Assembly (NCBI GenBank): GCA_009885545.1
Contig: VFKM01000155.1
Span: forward strand, 1-35,217
Direction of reading: 5' to 3'
From: Flavobacteriales bacterium
GTDB taxonomy: Bacteria; Bacteroidota; Bacteroidia; Flavobacteriales_D; Crocinitomicaceae
Length of the DNA stretch: 35,217 nt
Shown: piece by piece, positions 13,779 through 24,215 of the stretch
Numbering within the stretch: the stretch's first letter is position 1
Layout: every line of letters begins with the position of its first letter
Notes under the pieces: model-generated
Database searches by the model: none
What the model was told of the DNA's origin: nothing
What the model saw: only the letters and a program-made list of their open reading frames with translations
Program-made: the position numbers and the translations under genes

Positions 13779-16394
13779 ATGGATTTAAATAAGTTTACAA
13801 CCAAATCGCAAGAAGTCGTTCAACAAGCCCAAAACCTTGCTGAGACAAATGGCAACCAATCCATTGAAACAGGTCATCTATTAAAGGCAATATTCATAAC
13901 AGACCAAGATGTAACTCCTTATTTACTCAACAAATTAAATGTTCACACAAAGGGATTAGAATCTGCACTTGATAGCATAATATCATCTTATTCTAAAGTT
14001 CAAGGAGGTCAAATTTATCTATCACAAAACACAAATAAGGTATTCAATAACGCCGTTAACGAGCTCAAGAATTTTGGAGACGATTACGTCACAATTGAAA
14101 TGTTACTCTATTGCCTACTCGACTCTTCTGATTCTATTGGGGCACTTTTAAAAGATAATAAAATAAACAAAAACAATCTTAAACAGGCAATTATGGATTT
14201 AAGAAAAGGTGAAAAAGTCACTTCAAAAAGTCAAGAAGAAACCTATCAATCGCTTGAGAAATATGCTAAGAATTTAAATGAACTTGCTAAAGCAGGAAAA
14301 TTAGATCCTGTTATCGGACGAGATGATGAGATAAGACGTGTTTTGCAAATTCTTACGAGAAGAACAAAAAATAATCCAATTTTAATTGGTGAACCTGGAG
14401 TTGGAAAAACGGCCATAGCAGAAGGTTTGGCGCATAGAATCGTTGATGGAGATGTTCCTGAAAACCTTAAAACAAAAGTAGTTTATTCACTTGATATGGG
14501 TTCATTGATAGCTGGAGCAAAATACAAAGGTGAATTTGAAGAACGATTAAAAGCCGTTATCAAAGAAGTAATCAATGCTGAAGGGGAAATCATTCTTTTC
14601 ATTGACGAAATACATACCCTTGTTGGAGCTGGTGGAGGTGAAGGAGCAATGGATGCAGCAAACATCTTAAAGCCTGCTTTGGCAAGAGGTGAATTAAGAG
14701 CGGTTGGTGCAACAACATTAAACGAATATCAAAAATACTTCGAAAAAGACAAAGCATTAGTGCGTCGTTTTCAAACTGTTTTGGTGGACGAACCAACAAC
14801 AGAAGATGCTATTTCAATTCTTCGTGGAATCAAAGAAAAATACGAAGCACACCACAAAGTTTTAATCAAAGATGCTGCTATAATTGCAGCAGTTGAATTA
14901 TCTCAACGCTATATTACCGATCGTCATTTGCCCGACAAGGCGATAGATTTAATTGATGAAGCGGCTTCAAAGATGCGCATGGAAATTAATTCTAAACCAG
15001 AAGAACTGGACGAATTAGAACGAAAAATTATGCAACTCGAAATTGAACGTGAAGCGCTGAAAAGAGAAAACGATAAGAAAAAAATAGAAAATGTTGAGAA
15101 AGAATTAGCCAACTTAACAGAGCAAAGAGACGCATTCAAAGCAAAATGGCAAGCAGAGAGAGACGTTGTTGATTCAGTTCAAAAATTGAGAGAAGCAATC
15201 GAAGATTTTAAAGTGGAGGCAGATCAAGCAGAACGAGCTGGAGATTATGGAAAAGTAGCTGAAATTCGATATGGCAAAATCAAAGAAGCAGAAGAACAAC
15301 TTGAAAAAATAAAATCCAAGCTTGCTGAAATGCAGTCAAAATCAAAAATGATCAAGGAAGAAGTTGATTCTGAAGATATCGCTGAAGTAGTTTCAAAATG
15401 GACAGGAATTCCAGTTAATAAAATGATCGAAAGTGAAGTTTCCAAGCTATTAAAATTAGAAGACGAATTAGGAAAACGAATCGTAGGTCAAGAAGAAGCA
15501 ATAACAGCTATTTCTGATGCAGTTCGAAGATCTAGAGCTGGATTGCAAGACGCAAGAAAACCAATTGGATCTTTCATTTTCCTTGGAACGACAGGTGTTG
15601 GTAAAACAGAATTAGCCAAAGCATTGGCTGAATATCTATTCAATGATGAAAATGCAATGACTCGAATTGACATGAGTGAATACCAAGAAAAACATTCCGT
15701 TTCGCGTTTGGTTGGAGCCCCTCCTGGATATGTTGGTTATGACGAGGGAGGTCAGTTGACGGAGGCTGTTCGTAGGCGTCCCTACTCTATTGTTTTATTA
15801 GATGAAATTGAAAAAGCGCATCCCGATGTTTTCAATGTTTTATTGCAAGTTTTAGATGATGGTCGTTTGACCGATAACAAAGGTAGAGTTGTGAATTTCA
15901 AGAATACGATTATCATTATGACTTCGAATCTTGGGTCACATATTATCCATGAAAAATTCGACAATATAAAGCCTGCAGAATATGAACGAGCAGGAGAAAA
16001 AGCGAAATTTGAAGTACTTGAATTATTGCGACAAACAATTCGTCCAGAGTTTTTGAACAGAATTGATGAAACAATCATGTTCTTTCCATTAACAAAAGCA
16101 AATGTGAAAGAGATTGTTGGAATTCAATTGAATAATTTGAAAAAACAATTAAAAGAAAATGACATCAATCTTGTTGTAACAGAAGATGCGTTTGATTGGA
16201 TTACAGAAGCTGGATACGACCCATTCTTTGGTGCAAGACCCGTTAAAAGAGTGATTCAAAAGCAAGTATTGAACGAATTGTCAAAAGCACTTTTAAGCGG
16301 AACAATTGACAAAACTAAAAATGTTGTTCTGGATACATTTGATGGAAAAATTGTTTTCAGAAAACCGATTTTGGAATCAGAAGAAGTTAAATAA
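13779..16394 (+). CDS. clpB: ATP-dependent disaggregase ClpB
   Basis: An 871-residue Hsp100 chaperone that, with DnaK, extracts polypeptides from aggregates in the cytosol. The Clp N domain spans about 1-145 ([20 protein letters not shown]). NBD1 has Walker A GEPGVGKT near 204-211 and Walker [11 protein letters not shown] coiled-coil middle domain (about 405-525) separates it from NBD2, with Walker A GTTGVGKT near 604-611, [13 protein letters not shown] and the arginine finger region FLNRIDE. The ATG at 13779 is chosen because it matches the conserved ClpB N-terminus; a TTG at 13728 would add 17 residues without support. A terminator follows at 16423-16449. The last 16 codons and stop have a diverged duplicate at 21093-21143. 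A 9-bp inverted repeat (13682-13690 with 13757-13765) flanks the presumed promoter. Confidence 0.97.
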
Positions 16395-16422
16395 AAACAA
16401 TTAATTCAATAAATGTAAGTAG

Positions 16423-16449
16423 AAAAGGAGTGGTAATACCACTCCTTTT
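16423..16449 (+). terminator. Rho-independent terminator of clpB
   Basis: Eleven-base-pair stem (16423-16433 with 16439-16449), five-base loop; the 3' arm ends in four T. It begins 29 bases after the clpB stop. Confidence 0.8.
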
Positions 16450-16680
16450 ACTATTACCTAAAACCTAAACATCTACTTTTGATTATTATTGAAACCACTC
16501 TACAAATAATCTAAACATACCTAGTAATAAATATGCCATAAATAATACTTCATTGAAATACAACAACTTAACTATATATTATTTTTGAATATTTTCCCAA
16601 TTTTGGAATTATTTCCCAAAAAAAATCAATATATCTCTGAATTAAAACGACAATTTGGATCTCAATGAATCTTAAAAACA

Positions 16681-16712
16681 AAAAAAGGGGAAAGCTCGTT
16701 TGCTCTCCCCTT
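16681..16712 (-). terminator. Terminator of the large T9SS gene
   Basis: On the minus strand a stem (16687-16695 with 16702-16710, one mismatch, extended by AA/TT) is followed by a T run (16681-16686 as A). It starts 21 bases after the stop. Confidence 0.82.
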
Positions 16713-16732
16713 CCACATTTAGACCATTAGTT

Positions 16733-19700
16733 TTAACGCAAACTATGTTTCACCATATATGAAGTAATGGTTCCATTTGAAACCTGTATATAGTACATTC
16801 CTGGGGCAGATTCCAAATCTTCAATATGGAACACATTGCTGCCTTTTTCGACAAGAACATCTTGTCTATAAATAACCACTCCTCTCGCATCAAATACAGA
16901 GATAATAGAAGGACCAGTTATATCTTTTGTGTAAAAATCTAAATAAAAACTTCCATTACTTGGATTTGGATAAGATATTAGCTTAGTTTCTGTTTCATTG
17001 GAACCACAGTTTGCTGAAACGATATTGAACGTTTCAGAAACACCATCAATATCAAACTGTGTTAATCTGTAATACGTCGTTCCACTTACAACATCAGTGT
17101 CTGTTATCGCATATTCAATTACTGAAGTTGAATTACCTGCAGCGCCCAATGTATTCAAGATTGTCCAATTTACACCGTCTCTTGATTTTTTAACTACATA
17201 ATGACTCGTGTTGTGCTCTGAAGCAGTTGACCAAGTAACATCCACTTGATTATCTCCTGCACAATTCGCTTGGAAAGAGATTAATTCGACTGGAAGTCCG
17301 ACTACATTTGAAAATGCAATAGCAAACCAACTATAATTACTCATGCCAGTCCTATTAATCGTGTAATCAGTCGAAGTACCTGAAATTGCCCCATGAACAC
17401 CGTCAAGCGTCCAGATAGTATGAGAACCAGGGGATTTAATTATTCTTGAATAATTGTAATTTTGTATAGTAAAATTATTGACCCTAGCAGTAGCTGAATA
17501 AAAACCTCCACTTAGAGCTCCTGGAACTGCTTCCCAATAGCCGTTAGGTGCAATACTATTTAGAGTGATGGAACCATCGATAAGATCCATCCCATTAGTA
17601 GCAGCCGTTGTGGTTGTCGGGTTGATGCCTTTAAATTCGACTGTCATGTAACCTGCCGTTGACGGAGCCGATGTATATTCCAATCTGTACCATCTGTTAA
17701 GAACCCCTGAACCAGGATTATTTCCTACTGGGAACAAACCTGAGATGTTGCCTGAATTTGTTGAGGCATTAAACCATCTTCTAAGTGGACCGAGAACTGT
17801 TCCAGTAGTCCAGTTCATAGAACCAGGGAAACCGGCTGATACACCTAAAGTTAAAAGATTAGTAGACGTTGTAGAAATATCCCCATCAATCATCGCTAAT
17901 TCGCCATATAGATTCGCAGCACCACCAATTGTCAATAAACCGGATGTGCCCATATTTGTTGTTAACGATCCAAGATCAGACCAAGGAATATTGGTCGTTG
18001 GTGTTAGATTACTCAAAGGATTGGTATAAATAATCCGCGAAGTTGATGTACTAATTGTACGTGTACCTGTCATGGCATAGTGAGTATTGAATGTTGATGC
18101 TTTTAATTCAGTTGTTCCATTTAAATCCAACAAGTTTACATTTCCATTTACAAATTGAATGCTCGAAGATGAAAATCTCAAAACAGAACCGGCATTGATC
18201 GTAATTTTTCCTGCTACTGCAGAACCATTGTTAGCTCCGAAATTCATACCAAGAGTCACACCAGCCGCACTTGTGTTACTGATAACAAGCTGTGATACTC
18301 CTGCATCCTTTCCACCAATAAATGAACTGGTTCCTGAACCAGAAAAACTTTGAGCACTTGTCCCATTCAGTTCTATAATATAATCGTACGTCCCGTTAGA
18401 ATATCCTTGACCAATTATTCCATTATTAACCACGTTACCCCCGATACGAATTGTCTGTGTTCCACCTCCTGCCCAATTCAACACACCAAACTGAGCCCCG
18501 CTGTTCACTGTGAAATCACCTGTGCACACATGTGTTACAGTAGCGGTTGACATTTTTAATGAAGCATTGCTAAGAATGATAATACTTTTCACATTAATTG
18601 CAGTAGCAGGAAGATATACAAGATTCGCATTTAAACTCGTTGTGGGTGGAGCTTGAATAATAACATCTGCAGTTCCATCTATGGGTGGAATTAAACCACA
18701 TTCCCAAGTTGCCGCATTGCTCCATAGTAAAGCACCATTTGTAGTTGTCACCGTTTGATATACTCCACCCGGACCAATTATTAAAATTGAAGTTACAGAA
18801 GATATTGCTGATTGTGCACTATTCGTACATGTAACAATACATCTGTAATATATAGCCGAAGTCAAAGCTGGAGTTGTATACGTTGCCGTAGTTGCTCCTG
18901 AGCCTCCAGTTGCATTTGCCCAACCTGTGGAACCATTATTTGATTGTTCCCATTGATAAGTAAGACCAGTGGCTATTGTTTGACCGCTTAGTGAAATTGT
19001 AGAAGTACTTCCGCTGCACACTGCCGAAGGATTTGCAGTAGCCGTTCCTGCGGTTGGAGTTCCTGTACAAGCAACAGGTGCAATAATAGTCACTGAATAA
19101 TCTTCGACCTGTCCATATGCACTGGTACCGCAAGAAGAAGTAGCTCCTGAATTTGTATCATATAACCTCACGCGCATTCTTGTTGTGCCTAGAGTTGCAG
19201 TTCCAGGAACAGTAATACTTGATGAATGTGGTCCAACCCCTGTTGCTGAAGTATATGCTTGTTCTCCAGCATCTGCGAAGTCACCATCCAGGTTATAATC
19301 GATCCAAACGATTATTTGATCAGTAGCAAAACCTCCCGCGATACTGCCTGAGAATGAATATGCTGCACCCTGAACAACTGTAGTAGAAACACCTGTAAAA
19401 TCTTCATAAACTGCAGTGGAAGTTGAGTTATTATTTATAGTATTAAACGTTACATTCGAAATTTTCTCAAAACTAGTTGTAGTCGACGCCGCGGTACAAT
19501 AAGTACAAGCTGCACTTGTCAATACCACATCATCGGTAGATGTACAAGTGCCATTGGTAGTTGTCCATCGGTAAGTATTAGCGCCTGTATTGAAACCACT
19601 TACAGTAGAAGTAGCGCTTGTTGCATCGCCAAATGTACCTACACCGCTTACCACACTCCACACACCTGTTCCAACCGAAGGTGTATTAGCAGCAAGATTA

Positions 19701-20863
19701 ACTGATGTACCTCCCGAACATACCGTGATATCACTTCCAGCAGCAGCGGTTGTTGGTGCAGCAAGTACGGTTAACGCAATTGATGCTGAATTAGCAGCAT
19801 TAGTAACAACAACATTTCCTGAAGTTGCTGTTGCCGGACAAGTTACTGTTATTTGTGTAGTACTGTTTACGGTATAAGTAGCCGCAGTTCCATTAACTGT
19901 AACTCCCGTAGTTCCTTGAAAATTGGTACCGGTTACTGTAAAATTCGTTCCCTGACAAACACTTGAAGAAGATAAAGAACTGATAGTTGGTGGTTTTATT
20001 TCATACCACGACATGATGGTTTTACCACAATTAGTTGTAACAGACTCTGTTTGAGAAACATTTCCTGTAGCGCCTGTCGTGGTAGAGTTTTGTAAATAAT
20101 AAGCAATCGAAATGCTTTGGTCACTACCAGAAGTATTTCTGTATTGTGCTCCAAGTCCAGTTTTACTCCAACCGGCACCTGTTAATGTAGACCATGTAAC
20201 GGCACTAGAACTTCCCCAAAATGCTCCGGTAACCGTGCTGGGCCATGTTGTAGTAACCCCAGATATGGTTTCTATTGCAGTATTAGCTGTAGAATTAACG
20301 GGATTTACATTGACACCCCAATGACTCGTGCCTGCACTGGGTCTGAAAACTGACATCACAGCACTTATACATGTATTATTTGAAAATGAAACAGACGGAC
20401 TTGCCGACCAGGTGCCATTGTATCGGCACCAAAATATTTTTTGTTGAATGTTTGCTGTCGGGGTGTAATCCGCTACACTTGTCCATGTTTGACCGCCTGC
20501 CTGGCTTATAGCAATTGTTGAACCATCAACTCTACTCTCGGCAAAAATTACAACCAAATCACCGGTTACCATAGATCCAGGAGGTGCAATAACTGTTGGA
20601 CTTGCAGTATTGGTACCAGGGTCAGCGGGAGTAGAAGCTACCCCAAAAAATGTTTGAGCGCTTACATTGGCTGTGCCTGCGAGCATCACCACCGTCAAAA
20701 GCAAAGCACCGCCTATGTGAAAGCTATGCCTAACAAGTGACGCAAAAGGAGAAATATTTTTTAGCTTTGAACTAAAATCAATAAATTTCAAAACATTTCT
20801 AAAGAGCCCTTTAAGATCCTTTGAAATCTTGTGATTTGATGTGAAATAATTTTTCATGATCAT
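16733..20863 (-). CDS. Large T9SS cargo protein with IPT/TIG, GEVED and beta-solenoid-like regions
   Basis: A 1376-residue surface or secreted protein. The N-terminus is unusual: about 48 charged residues precede the hydrophobic core (GGALLLTVVMLAGTANVSAQ, 51-70), an extended signal peptide. Then follow a beta-rich domain (about 75-285), an IPT/TIG fold (about 290-372, VTVNGTAATYTV), an Ig-like segment (about 372-455), a GEVED domain (about 456-600, with IDYNLDGDFADAGEQ and YGQVEDYSV), an Ig-like domain (about 600-690), a long solenoid-like region (about 700-1150), an Fn3-like domain starting LPVELISF (about 1187) and a type A sorting domain (YPNPSNGSFYLDFY to GMYYIQVSNG). The last 190 residues are related to the shorter neighbour at 21292-22410. 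Transcription probably starts within the 215-bp repeat directly upstream. ATGs at 20863 and 20857 are both possible. Function unknown; adhesion is a guess. Confidence 0.9.
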   Translation of the reverse strand: MIMKNYFTSNHKISKDLKGLFRNVLKFIDFSSKLKNISPFASLVRHSFHIGGALLLTVVMLAGTANVSAQTFFGVASTPADPGTNTASPTVIAPPGSMVTGDLVVIFAESRVDGSTIAISQAGGQTWTSVADYTPTANIQQKIFWCRYNGTWSASPSVSFSNNTCISAVMSVFRPSAGTSHWGVNVNPVNSTANTAIETISGVTTTWPSTVTGAFWGSSSAVTWSTLTGAGWSKTGLGAQYRNTSGSDQSISIAYYLQNSTTTGATGNVSQTESVTTNCGKTIMSWYEIKPPTISSLSSSSVCQGTNFTVTGTNFQGTTGVTVNGTAATYTVNSTTQITVTCPATATSGNVVVTNAANSASIALTVLAAPTTAAAGSDITVCSGGTSVNLAANTPSVGTGVWSVVSGVGTFGDATSATSTVSGFNTGANTYRWTTTNGTCTSTDDVVLTSAACTYCTAASTTTSFEKISNVTFNTINNNSTSTAVYEDFTGVSTTVVQGAAYSFSGSIAGGFATDQIIVWIDYNLDGDFADAGEQAYTSATGVGPHSSSITVPGTATLGTTRMRVRLYDTNSGATSSCGTSAYGQVEDYSVTIIAPVACTGTPTAGTATANPSAVCSGSTSTISLSGQTIATGLTYQWEQSNNGSTGWANATGGSGATTATYTTPALTSAIYYRCIVTCTNSAQSAISSVTSILIIGPGGVYQTVTTTNGALLWSNAATWECGLIPPIDGTADVIIQAPPTTSLNANLVYLPATAINVKSIIILSNASLKMSTATVTHVCTGDFTVNSGAQFGVLNWAGGGTQTIRIGGNVVNNGIIGQGYSNGTYDYIIELNGTSAQSFSGSGTSSFIGGKDAGVSQLVISNTSAAGVTLGMNFGANNGSAVAGKITINAGSVLRFSSSSIQFVNGNVNLLDLNGTTELKASTFNTHYAMTGTRTISTSTSRIIYTNPLSNLTPTTNIPWSDLGSLTTNMGTSGLLTIGGAANLYGELAMIDGDISTTSTNLLTLGVSAGFPGSMNWTTGTVLGPLRRWFNASTNSGNISGLFPVGNNPGSGVLNRWYRLEYTSAPSTAGYMTVEFKGINPTTTTAATNGMDLIDGSITLNSIAPNGYWEAVPGALSGGFYSATARVNNFTIQNYNYSRIIKSPGSHTIWTLDGVHGAISGTSTDYTINRTGMSNYSWFAIAFSNVVGLPVELISFQANCAGDNQVDVTWSTASEHNTSHYVVKKSRDGVNWTILNTLGAAGNSTSVIEYAITDTDVVSGTTYYRLTQFDIDGVSETFNIVSANCGSNETETKLISYPNPSNGSFYLDFYTKDITGPSIISVFDARGVVIYRQDVLVEKGSNVFHIEDLESAPGMYYIQVSNGTITSYMVKHSLR

Positions 20864-20875
20864 AGATTTTGCGTT

Positions 20876-20909
20876 AATTCGGCATCATGGTCTAAATGAT
20901 AGTCGAATT
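20876..20909 (-). promoter_or_regulatory. Conserved dyad in the leader of the large T9SS gene
   Basis: AATTCG and ATCAT face ATGAT and CGAATT around a seven-base centre. The same dyad is at 22609-22642 with the outermost pair lost. It would fall at the 5' end of the transcript. Confidence 0.5.
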
Positions 20910-20917
20910 CTCACAAG

Positions 20918-20945
20918 GAAAAGTATGCCATGGATAAATAGTCAA
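20918..20945 (-). promoter_or_regulatory. Candidate promoter of the large T9SS gene
   Basis: On the minus strand TTG (20943-20945), 17 bases, then TACTTTTC (20918-20925), seven of eight bases of TAnnTTTG. Both boxes are unchanged in the other repeat copy. Predicted leader about 45-50 bases. Confidence 0.5.
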
Positions 20946-21092
20946 TAAAACAAGGAGGTTTTGAAAAATTAAGAAATCACAATTTCCCGTTTTGGGAGAA
21001 AAAATCTCAAAAAGAAACTTATTTTAATTATTTGAAGGAAAAAAACAATGGGATCGAATTGACAAACTCGAATTTTCTTTATCCTTAATAAT

Positions 21093-21143
21093 TATGGGGA
21101 AATTGTTTTCAGAAAACCGATTTTGGATTCAGAAGAACAATAA
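21093..21143 (+). pseudogene. Duplicated clpB 3' end (remnant)
   Basis: Bases 21094-21137 match clpB 16342-16385 with three mismatches, including an uninterrupted 28-base identity. The clpB frame is kept: [16 protein letters not shown] and stop here, [17 protein letters not shown] and stop in clpB. There is no start codon or upstream clpB sequence; the match begins about 14 bases after the end of leader repeat copy A. It is a detached gene tail with no expected product. Confidence 0.88.
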
Positions 21144-21291
21144 AAATAAGAGATGACTGAAGAGATTTAATAATGTTTTTAATGCTTTTCTATAAATCAA
21201 TCAATGAATTAGAAATTTTACATTATCTGGGTTAGTCGATTTAAAAAGAGCCATTCACATTGAATGGCTCTTTAAATTAATTTAAACCGAA
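21144..21291. other. Spacer between the clpB tail remnant and the small T9SS gene
   Basis: Contains the terminator of the small cargo gene at 21245-21273. The rest shows no similarity to the sequence after the intact clpB that I can see. Confidence 0.4.
21245..21273 (-). terminator. Terminator of the small T9SS gene
   Basis: A perfect 13-bp stem (21245-21257 with 21261-21273) with a three-base loop; a T-rich 3' side on the minus strand. It lies 18 bases after the stop. Confidence 0.85.
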
Positions 21292-22410
21292 TTACTTTTT
21301 TATATACTTTGTAACTTCCAATGGAGATACTTCTGAAATAATACTGATGTAATATAATCCTGGTAAAGAGTTAAAGTCATCAATAATAAAAGTATTTAGA
21401 CCAATTGAAGAGGTATTTTTTCTTGAATACACTTCAATACCTTTTGAATCCGTTATCACTATTTCAATATTGTCCTCAGTAATTTTACTGTTTTGTTGAA
21501 TATAAATCGTCTCATTTCCTGGATTTGGATAAATTCTTACATTATCATTATTCCCAATAAAATTAGAACTTATTGGCCCATATATTTTGAATTCACCATC
21601 AATATCATATTGCATTAACCGATAATAATTCGTTCCGTCAAAAGGATTTGAATCAGAAATAGTATAATCAATACTCGTTGTTGAATTTCCTGTTGCTGAA
21701 ACCGCATTGACAAGTGTCCAATATTGACCTTCTCTTGAACGTTCAAGGTTAAAATAACTCGTATTATGTTCTGATGCAGTAGTCCAACTTATATTTATTA
21801 ATTCTTTCGAATTTGTCGTGTAAAAAGCAATAAGTTCTATTGGTAACGTACTTACATCACTCGTAAAACAAGGAGACACAGTACATTCTGCTGTAGAACC
21901 AAAAATTGTTGAGTTTCCAGAAGTTGTTATTGTGCCAGTAGCCGATAGACTTCCTGTACCTGTAATTGTAGAACCATTTCCGGTAACTACATTACCCGTA
22001 ACATTGACTGTACCATTAAATGAAACACCTGTACTATTGTTATTATTTGTAAGGGTGCCAGTAACATTTAAAACAGAAGATCCTGTACTAGTGAAAGTTG
22101 AATTATTTGAAAAAGTTAAATTCCCACTTAAAGTAAAGGTTGTGGTTAAATTCAAAGTGCCTCCCCCATTTACATCATAAGTTGTTGTTGTCAGATTCAT
22201 TGGGTGATTAATATTCACAACATCACCAGAAGAAATACTTGTCGAAGATGGGAATGAAGGACATGCTGGCCCTGGACTGCTATAAGTCACTGACCATGCT
22301 GCAGGATCAGTCCAATTGGTACTTGCTCCAGTTGTTGTAAATCTGCAATCAGCAAAACTTATTATTGGAAACAAAAAACAAATTGTTAGTATTAGTATTA
22401 ATTTGGTCAT
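21292..22410 (-). CDS. Small T9SS cargo protein, paralog of the large one
   Basis: A 372-residue secreted protein. Signal peptide 1-20 (MTKLILILTICFLFPIISFA). Residues about 25-165 are a low-complexity N/T/G/S-rich solenoid-like region (GTVNVTGNVVTGNGSTITGT), matching in style the start of the solenoid region of the large neighbour (TNWTDPAAW here, LLWSNAATW there). From about 172 an Fn3-like domain (LPIELIAFY, WTTASEHNTSYFNLERSREG) and a type A sorting domain (YPNPGNETIYI to GLYYISII, ending YIKK) align with the last 190 residues of that neighbour. The ATG at 22410 is chosen because it starts a clean signal peptide; a TTG at 22425 would add five residues. The 215-bp repeat lies about 190 bases upstream rather than adjoining the gene. 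Function unknown. Confidence 0.88.
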   Translation of the reverse strand: MTKLILILTICFLFPIISFADCRFTTTGASTNWTDPAAWSVTYSSPGPACPSFPSSTSISSGDVVNINHPMNLTTTTYDVNGGGTLNLTTTFTLSGNLTFSNNSTFTSTGSSVLNVTGTLTNNNNSTGVSFNGTVNVTGNVVTGNGSTITGTGSLSATGTITTSGNSTIFGSTAECTVSPCFTSDVSTLPIELIAFYTTNSKELINISWTTASEHNTSYFNLERSREGQYWTLVNAVSATGNSTTSIDYTISDSNPFDGTNYYRLMQYDIDGEFKIYGPISSNFIGNNDNVRIYPNPGNETIYIQQNSKITEDNIEIVITDSKGIEVYSRKNTSSIGLNTFIIDDFNSLPGLYYISIISEVSPLEVTKYIKK

Positions 22411-22524
22411 TTTAAGTGGTTTCAAGTAAATTTCTGGTATAATATAGTAAAATAATTTATAAAATATTTTTTTTTATTTAATAACAACGAACACTGCTTT
22501 GTTGAAAATTTAAATAAAAAGAAA

Positions 22525-22596
22525 TTATATGTTAATAATGATCAAGTCTTTCGTGCGCAACCGGTTAAAAGAGATATTTAAATTATTCATAAACAT
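22525..22596 (-). pseudogene. Possible decayed start of a cargo gene behind leader repeat B
   Basis: A 23-codon ORF, MFMNNLNISFNRLRTKDLII and three more residues, then stop. Its two ATGs (22596 and 22590) stand at exactly the same distance from the repeat as those of the large cargo gene (20863 and 20857), whose product begins MIMKNYFTSNHKISKDL. The shared pattern (M-x-M, N at 5, S at 9, KDL near 17) suggests common origin, but similarity past the first few codons is weak. It may also be a translated leader peptide. Confidence 0.5.
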
Positions 22597-22811
22597 TTAT
22601 TTTGCGTTCATTCGGTATCATGGTCTAGATGATGGTCGAATCGGCACAAGGAAAAGTATGCCTTGGATAAATAGTCAATAAAACAAGGGGTTTAAGGAAA
22701 ATTAAGAAATTACAATTTCCCCTTTAGGGAAAAAAAATCTCAAAAAGAAACTTATTTTAATTATTTGAAGGAATAAAACAATGGGATCGAATTGACAAAC
22801 TCGAATTTTCT
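22597..22811. repeat. 215-bp leader repeat, copy B
   Basis: Second copy of the segment at 20864-21078: same length, no indels, about 20 substitutions. The promoter boxes are intact, the central hairpin is perfect here (22716-22721 with 22727-22732), and the dyad is at 22609-22642. Its far end adjoins the speDE upstream region instead of a clpB tail. Confidence 0.9.
22651..22678 (-). promoter_or_regulatory. Candidate promoter in leader repeat B
   Basis: TTG (22676-22678), 17 bases, TACTTTTC (22651-22658) on the minus strand, identical to copy A. It would transcribe the 23-codon remnant and possibly the small T9SS gene. Confidence 0.45.
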
Positions 22812-22897
22812 GTTTCAAATAAAAACGCTTTACACCAAATTAACATTGGCTTTTAAATATATTCATTCAACTTTCTTTCCTTTTTGCTCGAAAACCT

Positions 22898-22931: not shown

Positions 22932-24215
22932 ATGAGTACAGCACTAGGGAATCACATACTTGTAGAGTTTATGAATTGCGACCCGCATATTATGAATGAT
23001 GTAGCAGCAATTGAAAGAGATATGGTTGCAGCAGCGCAAAAGGCTGGAGCTACTGTTATTAATTCTACGTTTCACCATTTTTCTCCTTTTGGAGTTTCTG
23101 GAGTAGTTGTTATTCAAGAAAGCCACCTTGCGATACATACTTGGCCTGAGTATGGGTATGCTGCAGTTGATCTTTTTACCTGTGGTGAGATGGATGCTTG
23201 GATTTCTTTTGATCATTTAAAAGAATGCTTTAAATCACAATCCTATTCGGCGATTGAAATGAAACGTGGATCAGTAAACTTATTGACACGTAATGATTTC
23301 GATATGACGACTATGCGTCAAAAAGCAGGAGAATGGAGAAATCCTGAATTCTTCACGCGCAATGTTTGGTTTACAGATAAAGATGAATTTCAAGCGCTTT
23401 CACTTCGATTTACAGGTGAAGTATTCTTTGATGTTCAATCTCCTTTTCAACGTGTAAGAATCATTGAATCATATAAATACGGTAAAATGTTGGCGTTGGA
23501 TGATATGGTTATGACAACCATCGAAGATGAATTTCATTACCATGAGATGATTGCTCATCCTGCGATGTTTACACATGGAAACGCAAAAAATATTTTAGTT
23601 ATTGGTGGTGGAGACGGTGGTACCGTTCGTGAAGTTTTACGTCATGAAAGCGTTGAAAAAGTTACAATGGTCGAAATTGACGGTGAAGTTATTACTGCTT
23701 GTAAAGAACATTTACCACAAATCGCTGCTGCTTTTGATAACCCAAAATTAGAATTACTAGTTGATGATGGTATTGCATTTTTAAAAACTGCTACTCCTGA
23801 ATCATACGACATTATTATAATTGACGGTTCTGATCCGGTTGGTCCTGCTGAAGGGTTGTTTTCTGTTGAATTTTACACGAACTGCTATAACGCATTAAAA
23901 AAAGATGGAATCTTGATTGCTCAAGGTGAGTCACCAAAGTTCAATGAGAAAGCATTTACAGAATTGAACCATACGTTGCAAGATATTTTTGGAAAAGACA
24001 AAGCGCCAGTTTCTTTGTTTTTTGTCCCTACCTACCCTACAGGAATGTGGAGTTTCCAATATGGATTAAAAGGTAATACACATCCTAAAATGATTACAAA
24101 TGATTCTACAATAGATGCATTTGTTGAAGAAAAAGGATTACGCTATTACAATGCTGATGTTCACAAAGGAAGTTTTGCAACTCCTAATTTTGTGAAAGCA
24201 TTGTTGAAAAAATAA
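22932..24215 (+). CDS. S-adenosylmethionine decarboxylase-spermidine synthase fusion
   Basis: A 427-residue bifunctional polyamine enzyme. Residues 1-120 are a SpeD-type (class 1b) AdoMet decarboxylase: the self-cleavage site is E63-S64 in [20 protein letters not shown], where S64 becomes the pyruvoyl group, with H69 and catalytic C84 present. Residues about 135-427 are an aminopropyltransferase (SpeE): GGGDGG at 225-230, E248 in MVEID, DDG at 278-280, and [13 protein letters not shown] at 298-310. One chain therefore makes decarboxylated AdoMet and transfers its aminopropyl group to putrescine, giving spermidine. SpeD-SpeE fusions are known in diverse bacteria. After self-cleavage the SpeE part would stay joined to the pyruvoyl alpha chain. 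It is followed seven bases later by an agmatinase-type gene, which would supply putrescine. Confidence 0.95.

Follow-up and report, generated by a model that had tools for sequence, protein, structure and literature searches.

Cargo genes of the type IX secretion system (T9SS) are many and large in Bacteroidota, and the switching of single cargo genes is largely open. Among described systems, the icaR messenger RNA (mRNA) of Staphylococcus aureus carries in its 3′-untranslated region (3′-UTR) a UCCCCUG motif, whose pairing with the Shine-Dalgarno region creates a substrate for RNase III (PMC3868564). In Flavobacterium johnsoniae, the initiation of translation does not use Shine-Dalgarno sequences and is adjusted by the structure surrounding the start codon (PMC6847099). 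Also, a survey of sigma54 regulons in Bacteroidota lists COG0542 proteases, GrpE, and GroES among their members (PMC12316311). Here, a 236-nucleotide (nt) leader is analyzed that stands twice, as leaders A and B, between clpB and speDE in a stretch of 35,217 nt from a Flavobacteriales bacterium of the Crocinitomicaceae (VFKM01000155.1, positions 1 to 35,217, forward strand; hereafter, the window).

The window is one whole contig (C151) of the draft genome G000, which has 206 contigs and is 89% complete. In the labels used, G017 is the sister species, other G numbers are genomes of relatives, and C and L stand for contig and locus; genus comparisons cover 26 genomes and the family comparison 240, the window's own included. 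On balance, we consider it probable, by a modest measure, that the two segments are copies of one promoter and 5′-UTR of a T9SS cargo unit lodged between clpB and speDE, and that the unit was duplicated and its cargo then came to differ; how this promoter and a panhandle between the mRNA ends would work is what we infer from their anatomy.

A repeated leader and the genes behind it

The features that bear on the repeat are the following.
13779-16394, plus strand: clpB, from its translation (start ATG at 13779; a TTG-started open reading frame (ORF) runs from 13728)
16342-16418, plus strand: clpB 3′ end, source of the fragment at 21088-21170 (repeat search and local alignment)
16733-20863, minus strand: gene A, 1376 residues, predicted T9SS cargo (domain matches to GEVED and Por_Secre_tail)
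20848-21083, minus strand: leader A, repeat copy 1 (repeat search and alignment)
20925-20930, minus strand: TGGCAT box of leader A, -24-like
20985-20997, minus strand: palindrome TCCCAAAACGGGA of leader A, its GGGAA beginning 59 nt upstream of GGCAT
21088-21170, plus strand: clpB 3′-end fragment (tail′), a scar at the outer edge of leader A (86% over 21094-21149, E 1.7e-12)
21292-22425, minus strand: gene B, 377 residues, predicted T9SS cargo (Por_Secre_tail; start TTG 22425, alternative ATG 22410)
22581-22816, minus strand: leader B, repeat copy 2, with AGGCAT box at 22658-22663 and palindrome at 22718-22730
22932-24215, plus strand: speDE, a fusion of AdoMet_dc and spermidine synthase by domain matches, the right-hand neighbor

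The original prediction held that the segments 20864-21078 and 22597-22811 align with about 20 substitutions and no gaps, and the alignment gives exactly 20 in 215 positions, gapless. Moreover, the repeat grows to 20848-21083 and 22581-22816, that is, 236 nt with 25 substitutions (9 transitions and 16 transversions), no indels, and 89.4% identity, the longest run identical between both leaders being 42 nt. A 35-nt piece of it, with at most three mismatches, is found twice in the window, against a mean of 0 in 100 shuffles.

By their Por_Secre_tail domains (30.1 bits in gene A and 28.1 in gene B, with a cutoff of 27), both genes are assigned to T9SS cargo, and both copies lie upstream of them on the minus strand, in agreement with what had been proposed. 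The spacing has to be amended: the start codon of gene A (ATG at 20863-20861) lies within repeat A, whereas gene B starts, at TTG 22425 or ATG 22410, only some 160-170 nt downstream of where repeat B ends. A 23-codon ORF is present between leader B and gene B (22525-22596, minus strand), and at the matching position of the sister species, a 159-residue gene stands before the cargo gene. The two proteins had been described as alike only in their last 190 residues or so, which is about right, the strongest similarity between them being C-terminal: BLASTP aligns residues 996-1372 of A with 22-377 of B at 29%, other parts match more weakly, and the last 190 codons of the two genes are 54% identical in DNA.

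The split between genes A and B is deeper than that between gene A and its counterpart in the sister species, which is 77% identical over 220 aligned codons. In the gene A region, about 700 bp of the 3′ end match G017 at 80%, and the whole proteins are 34% identical over 887 aligned positions. At fourfold sites, G000 and G017 differ by 40% (123/309 in clpB and 66/167 in speDE), whereas leaders A and B differ by 10.6% (25/236). Judged from these divergences, the leaders seem to have separated much more recently than the genes behind them.

A clpB scar and a probable history of duplication

The order at the locus is clpB (+), gene A (−), leader A, clpB fragment, gene B (−), leader B, and speDE (+). 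The fragment starts 5-11 nt past the outer edge of leader A, which places the joint at 21083-21094, and its local alignment with the clpB tail scores 87, the maximum of 1000 shuffles being 52. Since it scores 87 with the clpB of its own genome and 53 with that of the sister species, it probably arose in this lineage; its age is reflected in 4 differences in 45 nt. With the leader present twice and the clpB tail present twice, both edges of a unit running from clpB tail to leader are duplicated, and the joint lies between the copies, as a tandem duplication would leave them. Two observations weigh against a simple version of this history: the interiors are not homologous at equal age, and between tail′ and gene B, no trace of the intergenic sequence of copy 1 is found (712 of 1000 shuffles score as well), so that, after a plain tandem duplication, the interior would have to have been lost. 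Because genes A and B are more diverged than their leaders and the spacers after the tail are unlike, a plain duplication is not claimed.

G000 has a third copy of the clpB tail, on contig C95 (80% over query positions 35-546); a cargo 3′ end and a putative noncoding RNA (ncRNA) unit treated below accompany it, so such copying seems to have occurred more than once.
G000:C95:11581-12178 (L231): block of clpB tail, ncRNA unit, and cargo 3′ end
This block is adjoined by a further cargo 3′-end remnant, and a cargo ORF breaks off near the contig end. In the genus, a match to clpB at E≤1e-100 exists in 25 of the 26 genomes, although some of these genomes match just with a ClpB-like paralogue, at about 50%. 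G001 and G005 have relatives of gene B upstream of speDE, and in G010, G019, G020, and G022, the gap from clpB to speDE is about 300-340 bp and holds no cargo gene; therefore, this is a locus where cargo comes and goes.

Other possible remnants at the locus were considered. A clpB piece beside leader B (22540-22582) is suggestive only: in three tests, 23, 79, and 11 of 1000 shuffles reach its score, and 805 of 1000 reach its similarity to the C95 fragment. A gene-start remnant below leader B is unsupported (856/1000), and an origin of the leader as decayed clpB was rejected (437 and 101 of 1000 shuffles).

In its simplest form, the history would be a duplication of the segment holding clpB tail, cargo, and leader, which would yield two copies of the edges, with the inner cargo later differing, whether replaced or derived from another allele. 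Of the options that the original prediction had left side by side, a recent duplication with different cargo fits best, because the clpB 3′-end fragment adjoins leader A. Selection alone is a poor explanation for the A-B identity, since the sister species' leader in this position has diverged far more than A and B have from each other, though leaders A and B head different genes. Gene conversion, as a process keeping two older leaders alike, agrees with the uneven placing of the substitutions, with 1 in the 76 nt of 21003-21078 and 24 in the remaining 160 (Fisher p 6e-4), where the clean stretch was picked after inspection and 50 of 5000 permutations show some 76-nt window equally clean; however, conversion of the leader alone leaves the similarly young clpB fragment unexplained, and we find this option improbable.

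A joining in tandem of two alleles of one cargo locus, in which DNA of another strain with a different cargo recombined at clpB, has the merit that no later replacement is needed. Both edges would then be duplicated while the interior differs, the sister species does have different cargo bodies between similar edges, and the gene B relatives beside speDE agree with it, yet the arrangement clpB, gene B, leader, speDE was not found among the genomes looked at, and this history seems rather unlikely, if less so than gene conversion. An assembly chimera of two strain haplotypes would look alike, as two stitched cargo alleles, in a draft genome of this contig number and completeness, probably assembled from a metagenome. 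Nonetheless, the 42-nt common run is short for a false join, and the second clpB-tail copy elsewhere in the genome suggests a real process, which makes a chimera very improbable. The duplication with differing cargo is retained, and the best reading of the leader repeat is that of a duplicated edge belonging to an exchangeable cargo unit; clpB-tail scars would make such exchange traceable, as similar edges around changing bodies.

Relatives of the leader

The leader is neither a widespread cassette of fixed sequence nor an element kept alike by selection alone. The notion of a widespread leader cassette is not supported by a nucleotide search at E≤1e-5, in which three candidates were scored per genome and the leader was found in 1 of the 240 family genomes, the window's own, where it occurs at two places; among the matches listed, the other 239 genomes hold no near-identical copy. 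With a sequence model built from leaders A and B and that of G017, just these three sequences score below E 1e-20 in the genus, and on 80 named speDE loci, only the G017 locus is clear (E 1e-28; next, 0.037). On the genome, family, and model searches, a place among many near-identical cassettes was rejected. Short leader matches in 10 other genus genomes reach at most 55 nt, and the short matches inspected, L003 in another genus genome and L014 in G000, both lie inside ORFs. The same holds for a third match of G000 to a loose leader pattern (C172) and for the two best weak matches of the model, in G025 and G017.

Diverged relatives are likely in two genomes. Leader A aligns with the G017 leader at a score of 74, the best of 300 shuffles being 59 (0/300), and leader B does so weakly (45, reached by 14/300). 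The G017 leader heads the 159-residue gene, which has no Pfam match, followed by a Por_Secre_tail gene. Two more likely relatives were recognized by eye in G006, upstream of the cargo genes at L206 598-4959 and 8789-11470; the cargo genes of these leaders, G006a and G006b, carry Por_Secre_tail at 37.9 and 29.1 bits. The likely relatives, which show both a GGCAT box and an AGACC element, thus stand before a T9SS cargo operon in G017 and before two T9SS cargo genes in G006, and all five leaders have GGCAT and, 20-odd nt on, a small dyad whose loop contains or adjoins AGACC. This dyad is of fair stability in G017 (−7.3 kcal/mol), G006a (−5.9), and G006b (−6.1) and weak in A (−2.0) and B (−1.1). 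Because of these diverged likely relatives, the leader may belong to a small family rather than being a one-off.

Upstream of speDE in G006, G012, G023, and G001 and in the spacers of G019 and G020, no leader similarity beyond shuffles is found. As a search pattern, the AGACC hairpin with an upstream GGYA gives 5 matches, no clear excess over permuted motifs. In an Rfam 15 scan of the whole window, only a tRNA reaches gathering score and the leader matches no known RNA family, and no title in the literature listings is about these leaders. Locus L206 itself (G006:C43, 1-12900) has a row of several T9SS cargo genes and cargo-like 3′ ends downstream of clpB; these ends read HSLR or HSFR, stop, ATGGTCTGA, and terminator.

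A promoter-like anatomy shared with a unit beside clpB

Next to clpB, a putative ncRNA unit is present in the window.
16420-16511, minus strand: putative ncRNA gene convergent with clpB, with TAGAGTGGTTTC core at 16491-16502 and terminator-like hairpin at 16423-16449
16533-16617, minus strand: promoter-like region of this unit, with two GGGAA half-sites and TGGCAT, the nearer GGGAA standing 61 nt from GGCAT

The core TAGAGTGGTTTC recurs in several members of the genus, in a unit with a terminator that mostly stands beside clpB. Unit loci were found in G006 (L206), G012 (L205), G017 (L066), G010 (L082 and L216), G015 (L217), and G018 (L211) and also in G019, G020, G022, and G023; tandem copies, two or three, occur in G006 and G012, one G010 copy lies elsewhere than at clpB, and the G015 copy is near speDE. 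Against Rfam, the units of G019 and the window give nothing near gathering score. In 12 of 14 aligned units, GGYA stands 34-36 nt before the core TAGAGTGG and 26-28 nt before a conserved GATTA, and the box is usually GGCAC or GGCAT. A GGAA-type half-site is located 57-60 nt upstream of the box in ten units, taken as the best match within 56-65 nt, and at 61 nt in the G000 unit.

The leaders have a similar layout. The distance from GGGAA to GGCAT is 59 nt in A and B and 60 nt in G017, and GGTAA stands 61 nt from GGCAT in G006b. A position-specific scoring matrix was trained on 10 of 15 distinct ncRNA-unit promoters, with G000 and G017 left out by design, G015 and G020 for lack of a box at the usual place, and G018 as not aligned. 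Its best combined site falls on GGCAT in A, B, G017, and G006b, the last scored with a matrix that includes two G006 units; of 2,009,228 background positions (window included), 30, 142, 2, and 12, respectively, score as high. RpoN is encoded in the genome (PF04552, E 1.2e-51). Moreover, TGG-N10-GA or TGG-N10-GC is present at most 90 nt upstream of clpB, whose product we take to belong to COG0542, in 13 of the 14 genus loci that could be used, in most of them at 39-45 nt from the start codon (16 loci were surveyed, L036-L051, and two starts were not found); this element may be a sigma54-type promoter. Based on the similar box spacing, the matrix sites, the presence of RpoN, the elements upstream of clpB, and the regulon survey, a sigma54-type promoter is favored: the leader looks like a promoter, possibly of this type, built like that of the conserved putative ncRNA gene.

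In the mechanism envisaged, an activator would bind TCCC(N5)GGGA in the leader, and RNA polymerase, probably with sigma54, would start about 25 nt after GGCAT, which predicts the +1 of leader A near 20904. The mRNA would then open with the small AGACC dyad, which is weak in A and B.

Several points weigh against or qualify this reading of the leader. In the leaders, the −12 half of the box is a poor match, and A and B score low on the box alone; by the −24/−12 rule for sigma54 (GG and GC 10 nt apart), GGCAT is present and −12 degenerate. In G006a and G006c, the palindrome is not at about 60 nt and the best combined matrix site is not on GGCAT, and 2 of the 14 ncRNA units (G015 and G020) have no box at the usual place. 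The local hairpins of A and B are no better than those of shuffles. The pattern GGGAA-N52-58-TGGCAY occurs 375 times in the 26 genomes against 154 for the reversed pattern, a count that pools coding and noncoding DNA, for which the reversed pattern is a poor coding-DNA control. Finally, every step of the leader mechanism is deduced from anatomy. As a genome-wide operator, TCCCN5GGGA shows no enrichment (5 against 6 in the control for G000 and 3 against 8 for G017), and of the 5 sites outside the leaders, 3 are in ORFs and 2 are not. Literature titles on type IX secretion and RpoN include none on T9SS cargo promoters, and those on type IX secretion and tandem duplication are unrelated.

A predicted panhandle between the mRNA ends

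The stretch from the dyad to the start codon would pair with the last codons, stop codon, and 3′-UTR of the same cargo mRNA and, in the sister species, across a two-gene operon.
20861-20898, minus strand: 5′ arm in leader A, from CATTTAGACCAT to the start codon ATG (20863-20861), by duplex energy
16716-16747, minus strand: 3′ arm, made of the last codons, stop codon, and 3′-UTR of gene A, complementary to the 5′ arm
16683-16714, minus strand: intrinsic-terminator-like hairpin 3′ of gene A

In leader A, the pieces CATTTAGACCAT, TTAACGCAAA, and CTATG each have partners in the last codons, stop codon, and 3′-UTR of gene A. The native duplexes have energies of −29.8 kcal/mol in A, −28.0 in the G017 two-gene operon, and −31.6 in G006a, each matched by 0/300 shuffles, and of −25.0 in G006b (2/300). 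When 826 ATG-started ORFs of at least 150 residues, taken from the window and the fetched loci, are ranked in the same way, gene A, G006a, and G006b take ranks 2-4 (−32.2, −31.9, and −23.2; mean −9.6, standard deviation 3.8), and the G017 operon, with the same stretches as in this ranking, gives −25.3. Rank 1 is an artefact of a GC palindrome on both sides; this is L200 5100-5790, where a GC-rich palindromic repeat flanks a small gene in an uncultured Fluviicola. Complementarity of the ends beyond chance is therefore seen in four transcripts of three species, namely gene A, the G017 operon, G006a, and G006b, and not in gene B, G017:C7, or G021:C11.

Leader B gives −9.2 with the 3′ end of its own gene (39/300 shuffles), where the 3′ partner is lacking, and −21.5 with that of gene A (1/300). 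This points to an A-type gene formerly behind leader B, which by its pairing seems orphaned from its 3′ partner. Leader B would then give promoter activity without a panhandle, gene B having no 3′ arm.

Against the panhandle, nonnative pairs of 5′ and 3′ ends are as strong as native ones, and therefore no gene-by-gene covariation is seen. Two cargo genes have the same 3′ arm and no 5′ arm (G017:C7, −11.5; G021:C11, −8.0), the 3′ arm is partly coding, and the inverted similarity of the ends in sequence alignment, beyond 500 shuffles in A and G006a, is not beyond shuffles in G017 (10/500) and G006b (52/500). The loci L232 15071-18715 and L233 686-8758 hold apparently orthologous Por_Secre_tail genes of G017 and G021 (1214 and 2690 residues) that share the same 3′ end and have a different leader without the 5′ arm.

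The arms could also be DNA elements, that is, inverted repeats bracketing the cargo gene and serving recombination or inversion in cargo exchange. The inverted similarity of the gene A ends, which beats all of 500 shuffles, would speak for this, as would the presence elsewhere in the genome of a block that includes a cargo 3′ end. Nevertheless, the arms lie inside the promoter box and the terminator hairpin and so end at the predicted mRNA ends, which favors a role in RNA over one in DNA, and the C95 copy runs past the arm and takes in the clpB tail and the ncRNA unit; a role in DNA is accordingly given little probability. An invertible or transposon-like cassette with inverted repeats at its ends is not supported by the one copied block examined (C95).

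As an RNA structure, the panhandle would mask the start codon together with the two ends of the message; until opened by translation or a factor, it would thereby reduce initiation or shield the RNA. We propose only tentatively, as a possibility that may well prove wrong, that in this Bacteroidota lineage, some giant T9SS cargo mRNAs with complementary ends form a panhandle over their start and stop codons and are driven by the activator-dependent promoter type of the conserved small RNA beside clpB, and that the edge holding panhandle and promoter was duplicated and reused while cargo bodies were exchanged. The predicted panhandle is the most interesting part of the finding and may control when the protein is made.

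Comparison with known systems

As in an ordinary tandem gene duplication, both segment edges are present twice with the joint inside; the difference is that the interior genes here look older than the edges. The flavobacterial vegetative promoter has the consensus TTG … TAnnTTTG, and leader A, read by eye, contains TTG-N17-TACTTTTC, but the TTG is not kept in the sister leader. The TGGCAT box of the leader resembles the sigma54 consensus TGGCAC-N5-7-TTGCT, as given in PMC12316311, and a palindromic site upstream and RpoN in the genome add to the likeness, whereas the leader's −12 half is degenerate, its activator only presumed, and its start site predicted.

Finally, the icaR mRNA (PMC3868564) is like the cargo mRNAs in that its 3′ end is complementary to the region controlling its own translation start. 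The arms of the cargo genes differ in being longer and in covering both start and stop codons, in T9SS cargo genes, and their pairing is predicted; moreover, their host phylum is one without Shine-Dalgarno sequences. If real, the panhandle would be a further case of 5′-3′ pairing in a bacterial mRNA, in a phylum where translation starts without Shine-Dalgarno sequences.

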